NCBI GenBank assembly: GCA_963931925.1 | Contig: OZ007575.1 | Coordinates: 36,651,850 to 36,715,849, forward strand | Length of the DNA stretch: 64,000 nt | Reading direction: 5' to 3' | DNA from: Onchidella celtica | Lineage: Eukaryota > Mollusca > Gastropoda > Systellommatophora > Onchidiidae | Program-made: the position numbers and the translations under genes | The notes under the pieces: generated by a model | What the model saw: only the letters and a program-made list of their open reading frames with translations | Told to the model about the DNA's origin: nothing | The model's database searches: none | Shown: one piece after another, positions 36,301 through 39,300 of the stretch | Numbering within the stretch: the stretch's first letter is position 1 | Layout of the letters: every line of letters begins with the position of its first letter

Positions 36301-39300
36301 GTCCAGAAAAATTAGAAGCACTGCAGGGATATAAGTTTACCAATTTTTATTTTGTGAGCAGAAAAAACTAAAGTGTACGTTGATCTGCTTCACTGCAACT
36401 GTGCAACATTAATGCATATGGCAGTTTCATGAGGAGCTTTTTTGAAAGTGTATGTTGATCTAGCTCAGTGTACCTGTGTTTTGCAGTGATTACATATAGG
36501 GATAGTTTCTGTTCCGGGTTTTTCCCCCTTGCCCTGAAAGATCACTTTTTTTTTTAAAGTACTTTTTTCTGTCTTCAAGCAACCCTCACATAAGTAAATA
36601 AGAGAAGCATTTTGTCACCGCTTGGTGCTAATAACATAAGTCATTTTTGACGCATGTGAGATATTAACAAAAAACTTTCTTTTCCTGTCATTTATACCAT
36701 TGGGATTCTGTTGGATTATTACATTTTCCTGTTGGCGCATTTCTTTTTCTATGATATTATTTGATAGCCCTCTCCTCAGGAATGCAATGAATCATTAGTT
36801 GCCTTTTTGCATAAGTCGGACACATACTGTTATCTGAGAGCAGTGACAATATTTAGCTTTTGCATCATTGTCATGTTGGTTGTTGTGGTGTATGGGGCTG
36901 TAAGCTCAGGAAATATTTCATGCCTAGTTTCTTTAAAACTTTTGCTTTTAAATCATACCATTTGATTCTGAGATAATGATGCCACCAGTCACTTCAAGGC
37001 ATGTTTACTTGTTGTATGAAGCATTTACTGGGGAAACGGTGATCAAGTAATGTGCAAAAATTGCTGTAGTTGCAGTGCTAACTGGAGTTACAGTCATTTT
37101 ATGAGCAAAGATTTGTATCAAAGTGTGACTGGTATTAACGATAATGAAACACAACACATTGCAACGGTAGCATATATGGCCTTAGCATAGCAAAGTTAGT
37201 TTTAACTGGTGTAAGTGAAAGACGAGGCCAAAATGTCAAATTAAATGTTCAACACACATTTTGGAACTAACTACAAAAAAAAACTTTTTTTCTTTGTCAA
37301 ATAACCTAACTCATGAAAGTTTTTGCAGGAAAACATCAGTTTGATAGTGAGTAACTTGAAGCTATTTCACATTTACTTTTTGCAAGTCGCAGCTTTAGTT
37401 CTTTTGTTTGTTGTAGCTCCATTTTCTGAAAAACTGGAGATCTTTTACTATGTAGCAGAGGTATGACAAATGCACACTTTGACACTAGTTTGAAATGAGT
37501 TGTGGCACTTATCAAAGCCGTTTCATAGTTCTGATTTATTGTAACTCCTTATCATAATACTAAAGCCGTAAACATTTAACGTTTGTGCAAAAAGTGGAGT
37601 TGGAGCGAACAAGAACTAAGGTCCGGAGATGTTATTTGAGTTGCTGGTTGTTAAGAAAATCCATTCCTATTTCCAGCTCCGTGGCACCCAAACATACCAA
37701 CAGCGGTGGAGCCAGCAAAAATTCTTCATCCAGCAGTCGGCATGTCAGTGGTGGTAGCCACAACCGCAGCAGCATCAGCAGAGGTGCCAGCGTCAGCAGC
37801 AGTAAAACTACACTGGATAGTTTGATATCTCGGCCATTCAGGAATGTCTGCAGTGGCTGGCAAAGATGTATCATCTTTGGTTTGGTTCTGTTGATGGCAT
37901 TTTGGTGAGTGTTAAACTGGTTTCTATTAATGATGTGACCATAGTTTATTCTATTACTAGATGCAAAAATGAGAGATTTTCACAACTTAGCTGGAATAAG
38001 TACGCTGTTTCTGTGTCTCTCGTTTGGTAGCTGTGATTTATTTGCATTTCCCCAGTTTGGTATCTGTGACATGTTTTATATCCCCAGTTTGGTGACTGAC
38101 GTTTGCATATCCCCAGTTTGGTGGCTGTGACATATTTTGTATATCCCCAGTTTGGTGTCTGTGACATGTTTTAAATCCCCAGTTTGGTGACTGACATGTT
38201 TATATATCTCCAGTTTGGTGGCTGTGACATATTTTGTATATCCCCAGTTTGGTATCTGTGACATGTTTTAGATCCCCAGTTTGGTGACTGACATGTTTAT
38301 ATATCTCCAGTTTGGTGGCTGTGACATATTTTGTATATCCCCAGTTTGGTATCTGTGACATGTTTTAGATCCCCAGTTTGGTGACTGACATGTTTATATA
38401 TCTCCAGTTTGGTATCTGTAACATGTTTTATATCCCCAGTTTGGTGACTGACATGTTTGCATATCTCCAGTTTGGTGGCTGTGACATATTTTGTATATCC
38501 CCAGTTTGGTGTCTGTGACATGTTTTAGATCCCCAGTTTGGTGACTGACATGTTTATATATCTCCAGTTTGGTGGCTGTGACATATTTTGTATATCCCCA
38601 GTTTGGTGTCTGTGACATGTTTTAGATCCCCAGTTTGGTGACTGACATGTTTATATATCTCCAGTTTCGTGGCTGTGACATATTTTGTATATCCCCAGTT
38701 TGGTATCTGTGACATGTTTTAGATCCCCAGTTTGGTGACTGACATGTTTATATATCTCCAGTTTGGTGGCTGTGACATATTTTTATATCCCCAGTTGGGT
38801 GACTGACATGTATTTGTATATCCCCAATATGGTAGCTGTGACATGTTTGTATATCCTCAGTTTGGTAGCTGTGACATATTTGTATATCCAAAGTTTGGTA
38901 CCTACGACATATTTGTATATCCTCAGTTTGATAGCTGTGACATATTTGTATATCCCCAGTTTGGTAGCTGTGACATGTTTGTATATCCTGGAGGTGAGAA
39001 AGCCGGACTCTGATGGCAGCCCTGTAGTTGCAAGTTCTAACAGTGGAGTCACTGGTGGTGCCGTTCTCAATACCACTAGTAGCTCGAGCACAACAGCGTC
39101 TACTGCGAGGTCGAACATAACAGGGTCGGATGTGCCACGGACAACAATCCTACCAACTACAACAACGTCAACAACTACAACTAGTACCACTACTACAACA
39201 ACAAGGACAACACAATGTATGAATACAGCCTTTGTGATTTTCATACTTTCCTACCCAAGTTTAATGAAATGTGCAATTTGTGCCTGTCATATCCATGGGG

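Follow-up and report, generated by a model that had tools for sequence, protein, structure and literature searches.

A tandem array of splice acceptor copies ahead of the membrane exon of a molluscan MYRF gene

Introduction

The founding description of mirages is reportedly the amphioxus Adh3 paper. Mirages are tandem repeats that span exon-intron boundaries, on the acceptor or the donor side (PMC3087553), and they have been described as varying in length between haplotypes and as somatically unstable at Adh3 (PMC3087553, PMC3902484). For the amphioxus boundary arrays, regular splicing is reportedly left intact, as judged from Adh3 data and globin RT-PCR (PMC3087553). Related cases include the 60- and 108-bp tandem repeats of lancelet PGBD5, which take in 5' or 3' splice sites and with which mRNA is likewise said to be spliced accurately (PMC3902484), and human paralogs in which introns are reported to have been formed by internal tandem repeats at exon-intron boundaries, the minisatellites involved being about 30 bp on average and, at boundaries, possibly able to activate cryptic splice sites (PMC2812944). 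Here an acceptor-side array in the MYRF gene of the gastropod Onchidella celtica is compared with these systems.

The MYRF gene and its membrane exon

The window analysed is a stretch of 64,000 nucleotides, to which all coordinates refer unless another locus is named. The gene on its + strand was identified as MYRF, as the first-pass annotation had proposed from the letters alone. Three Pfam families of the MYRF gene were matched above cut-off (MYRF_ICA, E 5.7e-21; Peptidase_S74, 9.8e-17; NDT80_PhoG, 1.2e-13), and the PDB chains matched by this gene are named myelin regulatory factor. The features expected of MYRF are present, namely the domains NDT80/PhoG (DNA binding), Peptidase_S74 and MYRF_ICA, followed by a single putative transmembrane segment. 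Genome-wide, MYRF_ICA was matched only once, and no second MYRF gene was found for comparison. Glutamine (CAG/CAA) tracts are present in two MYRF exons, at 6096-6316 and 19854-19903, and no tRNA or Rfam genes were found within the window. The exons on either side of the intron that holds the array are as follows:

37677..37904, + strand: MYRF exon with its end (phase 2) inside the first half of the membrane helix
38960..39216, + strand: MYRF exon, the first 30 nt of which (38960-38989) match the repeat unit

The reading frame continues when 37677-37904 is joined to 38960-39216, thus an exon start at 38960 fits the protein. This start produces a single hydrophobic segment of 23 residues with a GRAVY of 2.83, on hydropathy only; MYRF is described as having one transmembrane segment that is relatively well conserved (PMC3742443).

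Anatomy of the acceptor array

Directly before exon 38960-39216, 29 tandem units (cut at the acceptor) occupy 38023-38959. Their lengths run 33, 32, 29, 34, 32, 31, then (34, 32, 31) twice, 32, 31, (34, 32, 31) three times and finally six of 33 bp. The array and its left flank can be divided as follows:

38006..38022, + strand: possible relic of the original acceptor, a pyrimidine tract (TGTTTCTGTGTCTCTC) followed by G, with no AG
38023..38055, + strand: unit 1, 33 bp, with the first acceptor AG at 38055
38056..38761, + strand: units 2-23, including six 97-bp blocks (34+32+31)
38762..38959, + strand: units 24-29, each of the six exactly 33 bp long, continuing the exon frame with no stop

A comparison of the 30 nt around the acceptor with the upstream 1.5 kb gave a copy score of 55, and since dinucleotide shuffles (n=500) reached at most 27, the array is not a product of chance. 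Each unit is composed of nt 1-30 of exon 38960-39216 plus about 3 nt of intron, with the exonic 30 nt matched at 22-29 positions, such that roughly nine-tenths of the satellite is duplicated coding DNA, which encodes one half of a membrane helix. The periodicity is limited on the left by the exon-start phase (38023) and on the right by exon nt 30 (38989), which defines the duplicated segment as 3 + 30 = 33 bp. The ending CCTCAG, found in units 26 and 28, is what exon nt 28-30 (CCT) directly before CAG would produce. An AG closes 28 of the 29 units, the exception being CCCCAA at 38827.

These observations bear out much of the first-pass annotation, which had taken the 29 units for copies of the acceptor and the start of the MYRF membrane exon, with the exon start at 38960 as the last copy and the AG retained in 28. 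The tandem-repeat finder (TRF) that it had proposed as a check on the boundaries recovered the array in two overlapping rows, at 38022-38988 (period 97) and 38052-38988 (period 354). It had further described a 97-bp period (34+32+31) that expanded in blocks, a reading kept below, and had called this the older part, which does not stand. Pairwise identity among the six complete 97-bp blocks is 96.9-100% (mean 98.7%), whereas that among the six 33-bp units beside the exon is 66.7-90.9% (mean 81.4%, rising to 86.7% when the rearranged unit 25 is left out); judged by these identities, the blocks are apparently the younger part and the six exon-adjacent units the older. The interior is therefore homogenised and the edges distinct, unit 1 and units 24-29 having diverged. 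Beyond that annotation lie the approximately 30 of 33 bp that are coding, the open frame of the proximal units, the stops that meet all distal acceptors (both below) and the donor arrays elsewhere in MYRF. A search of the genome for further copies, which skips simple repeats and common words, returned the array itself as its single match.

At the left edge, unit 1 (38023) is preceded by the letters CTCTCG, with no acceptor. Pyrimidines make up 13 of the 16 letters at 38006-38021, a richness seen in 2.9% of 16-mers in 26501-32000. The tract ending in CTCTCG possibly marks an original acceptor that has lost its AG; an AG may also never have existed here. The reading of the left flank (37985-38022) as a decayed unit was ruled out, with 898 of 2000 shuffles aligning as well.

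Frames, stops and local strength of the decoy acceptors

The upstream acceptor copies fall into two zones. All six proximal boundaries are open in the reading frame and five have an AG (38761, 38794, 38860, 38893 and 38926), the remaining one, 38827, reading AA; use of these five would insert 11, 22, 33, 55 or 66 residues. By comparison, each of the 22 distal AGs (38055-38730) would lead into a stop 40-142 nt into the extended exon, located 410-1121 nt before the next junction. Under the usual 50-nt rule, stops that far before a junction would invite mRNA decay. Should mRNA from a distal acceptor be translated, the products would keep a hydrophobic segment and lose the lumenal domain.

Local strength was ranked roughly with a matrix built from only 12 other acceptors of the MYRF gene, which themselves score 0.0-12.6 when left out. 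On this scale the real acceptor scores 10.2, and the other 27 AG boundaries include 20 at 9.2-10.9, six at 6.6-8.6 and one (38893) at 4.5. The CTGAC branch-point consensus lies approximately 19 nt upstream of seven decoys (the six distal sites 38213, 38310, 38407, 38470, 38567 and 38664, along with 38761) and approximately 17 nt upstream of an eighth, 38116; the real site has only GTGAC, at approximately 19 nt. As many decoys score like the real acceptor, local sequence does not explain the choice of the last site. The earlier description of the intron as offering the spliceosome a row of many near-identical 3' splice sites is thus accurate, with most decoys scoring near the real site.

Among the AG letters of the six proximal units, one of 12 has changed (in unit 25), and the 12 changes found in the 165 letters of the other five units include none in an AG; these letters appear to show neither a clear excess nor a clear lack of change. 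Selection for an open proximal frame was also considered and dropped as evidence, as copies of such coding DNA easily stay open: of the 99 single changes open to an exon-derived unit, 5 would create a stop, and of the 33 transitions none would.

Other boundary arrays in the genome

In a boundary-copy test, a copy was sought within the adjacent 1.5 kb for each of the 25 MYRF boundaries that could be placed (13 acceptors and 12 donors). This set did not extend to the exons beyond 40853, to the one near 32240-32430 or to the donor of the exon that begins at 18438. The exon-38960 acceptor scored 55, the donor of exon 5921-6394 scored 36 and that of exon 35207-35316 scored 29 (weak), with none of 500 shuffles reaching the score in each of these three, to which shuffling was confined. 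The other 22 boundaries scored 14-18, among them the donor of exon 19708-20017, which was tested one base off and whose score of 17 is in the background range. The corresponding features are:

5921..6394, + strand: MYRF glutamine-rich exon with a tandemly copied donor, joining in frame to the exon starting 18438
6387..6747, + strand: donor-side boundary array, 82 bp x 4.5, of exon end (GGTCACAC), GTAAGT and intron
35300..35692, + strand: weak, decayed repeat of about 131 bp x 3 across the donor of exon 35207-35316

The array at 6387-6747 supplies three extra GT donors (after 6478, 6554 and 6637), any of which would run directly into a stop, and its fourth copy reads AT (6718). In the repeat at 35300-35692, block 1 resembles blocks 2 and 3 (0 of 300 shuffles as good for each), and no likeness was found between block 2 and block 3 (93 of 300 shuffles as good).

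Two further gene families were surveyed at 60 loci (30 of 85 Ion_trans and 30 of 76 Myosin_head matches), giving up to 120 edges, these being the ends of profile matches and not annotated exon ends. Several of the matches span introns, several of the loci are parts of a single gene, and windows of low complexity were left out. Nine of the 120 edges reached a score of 27, and two of these were judged boundary arrays by reading:

G000:C2, match 1190620-1190781, array at 1632-1817 of the locus (L069): myosin, the last 28 exon nt and a putative donor repeated 4.5x
G000:C1, match 61483140-61483340, array at 1723-2158 (L031), reverse strand: Ion_trans array

The myosin exon end (..DIAGFEIFD/GTAAGTAATAGTA) thus carries a 41-bp x 4.5 donor array with 95% matches, the donor being putative. 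The ion-channel exon carries a 71-bp x 6.1 array with 96% matches that includes a likely donor, G/GTAATG, and one of its six copies reads GATAATG instead of GGTAATG. The other seven edges were simple repeats, intronic or ambiguous (L022 being ambiguous). The myosin locus also holds a 51-bp x 8.1 array with 100% matches, at 1001-1413. Taken together, the MYRF, myosin and ion-channel arrays indicate that boundary arrays recur in this genome.

The placement of arrays relative to boundaries was assessed within 5-45 kb of the window for arrays of period at least 15, those in question included. Such arrays cover 9.3% of this region (7.5% for period at least 25), and 2 of the 25 placed boundaries fell inside an array, where random rotation expects 2.35 (period at least 15) or 1.89 (at least 25). 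There is accordingly no sign that splice sites seed arrays, and the first-pass view of a satellite grown from the acceptor does not require the acceptor to have had a special seeding role.

Comparison with described boundary arrays

The MYRF array resembles the amphioxus mirages in being a minisatellite-like duplication of a boundary, which in amphioxus lies on the acceptor (BflGb6) or the donor (BflGb9) side (PMC3087553). Its units mix intron and exon of one boundary, 28 of 29 keep the AG and the interior is homogenised; in the Adh3, BflGb6 and BflGb9 mirages, many but not all units similarly keep the AG or GT, and a homogenised interior is accompanied by distinct edges. The array is therefore a real, well-preserved and long example of a known but little-described class. 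It differs in belonging to a mollusc and not a cephalochordate, in being approximately 30/33 coding, in having proximal units in frame and in being known from genomic DNA alone, and its 29 units compare with 3 and 6 in two BflGb6 haplotypes (PMC3087553). The mitochondrial genome (contig 43, 13,988 bp) agrees with a mollusc: with genes named by reading its tRNAs and open frames, atp6, nad3 and cox3 lie on the minus strand and cob precedes D-C-F-cox2-Y-W-G-H, the arrangement of heterobranch gastropods. With the PGBD5 repeats it shares the tandem arrangement and the inclusion of splice sites, whereas those are imperfect, present in few copies (the 108-bp repeat is a triplication) and found in another gene and lineage (PMC3902484). 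The unit is also similar in size to the human-paralog minisatellites, though in those paralogs a new intron was formed, whilst in MYRF the array extended an intron that was already there and moved its acceptor (PMC2812944). No description of such an array in MYRF was found in the open-licence literature, where absence is weak evidence, and Mollusca appears to be a new phylum for mirage-type arrays.

Origin of the array and alternative explanations

We consider that the array is probably a mirage-type minisatellite spanning the exon-intron boundary, nearly neutral, with the exon-adjacent acceptor mostly used. It may have started with a 33-bp tandem duplication of the last 3 intron nt (CAG) and the first 30 exon nt; as this length is divisible by three and the copy brings an AG of its own, use of either acceptor would have left the frame intact. 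The ancestral layout would have been a pyrimidine tract like that at 38006-38021, then AG, then TTTGGTAGC. The outermost AG would then have been lost, leaving the rightmost copy as the end of the intron, 937 bp past the presumed original acceptor; copied coding sequence (GTGACATATTTGTATATCCCCAG) presumably now supplies the present acceptor with its branch-point region and pyrimidine tract. At a later stage, the 34-, 32- and 31-bp units would have been amplified together as the 97-bp block. The spliceosome would mostly pick the exon-adjacent acceptor, with some leakage to upstream ones; given that the real acceptor has no local advantage, we infer this preference from the need for a working gene and from the amphioxus precedent. 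The array would then constitute a natural experiment in which the spliceosome picks one 3' splice site of 28, most of them near-equal in local strength, and it suggests how an acceptor can migrate hundreds of bases with the protein unchanged and coding sequence becoming intron signals. It also extends the range of mirages to a mollusc, whose genome apparently has them in three genes.

The neutral reading is the most likely, ahead of a regulatory role. The array could be used as a splicing switch, in which proximal acceptors lengthen the membrane segment in steps of 11 residues and distal acceptors give decayed mRNA or a MYRF with a hydrophobic segment and no lumenal domain, tuning release of the transcription factor. 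The two-zone layout, with five proximal decoy AGs in frame and open and all 22 distal ones meeting stops, and the many decoys as strong as the real site are compatible with such use, and reports from C. elegans and mouse are in its favour (PMC3742443, PMC13043084). We nevertheless regard a switch as unlikely, as the open proximal frame needs no selection, the AGs of the proximal units show no special conservation and splicing in amphioxus reportedly proceeds undisturbed by such arrays (PMC3087553). A bolder form, which we hold to be very improbable, is a splicing rheostat, coded by frame, that acts on a membrane-tethered transcription factor: acceptors that the polymerase passes first would produce lumenal-less MYRF or decayed mRNA, the last ones stepwise longer membrane segments, and copy number would set the balance between individuals.

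It is also quite improbable that the constitutive exon begins upstream, at an in-frame 33-bp unit, to encode a normal protein with a lengthened hydrophobic segment. Four acceptors (38926, 38860, 38794 and 38761) give an open, in-frame extension and have scores of 9.2-10.9; however, it is the start at 38960 that produces the single 23-residue segment expected for MYRF from the published description (PMC3742443), and with 38893 weak (AAAG) and 38827 lacking an AG, the row is eroding. The presence of arrays at three of the 25 MYRF boundaries (two clear, one weak), and at one myosin and one ion-channel donor among up to 120 exon edges, might suggest that splice-site sequence itself promotes satellite birth and that boundaries are hot spots in this genome, but the random rotation of the window's arrays gave about as many boundary hits as observed, and we judge this highly improbable. 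An assembly artefact is extremely improbable: the array is known from one assembly, yet its units differ in an ordered way, it is short (about 0.95 kb), the frame is intact and the assembly, at 1.14 Gb in 43 contigs, was presumably built from long reads. The preferred reading therefore remains that of a nearly neutral mirage-type minisatellite.

Other repeats in the window

Several other repeats were observed in the window. Two copies (by eye) of an interspersed element, at 27417-27731 (- strand) and 60281-60580 (+ strand), contain much the same open frame, and each adjoins a similar 17-bp array (27436 and 60505), a further such array being present at 19342. The open frames at 739-1074, 9609-9950 and 12114-12383 are alike by eye (..ARCSPLMP..) and probably represent another interspersed repeat. 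Two arrays with a 33-34-bp unit, at 29326-29440 and 31983-32095, share a similar near-palindromic sequence (CCCCGGGGTATA).
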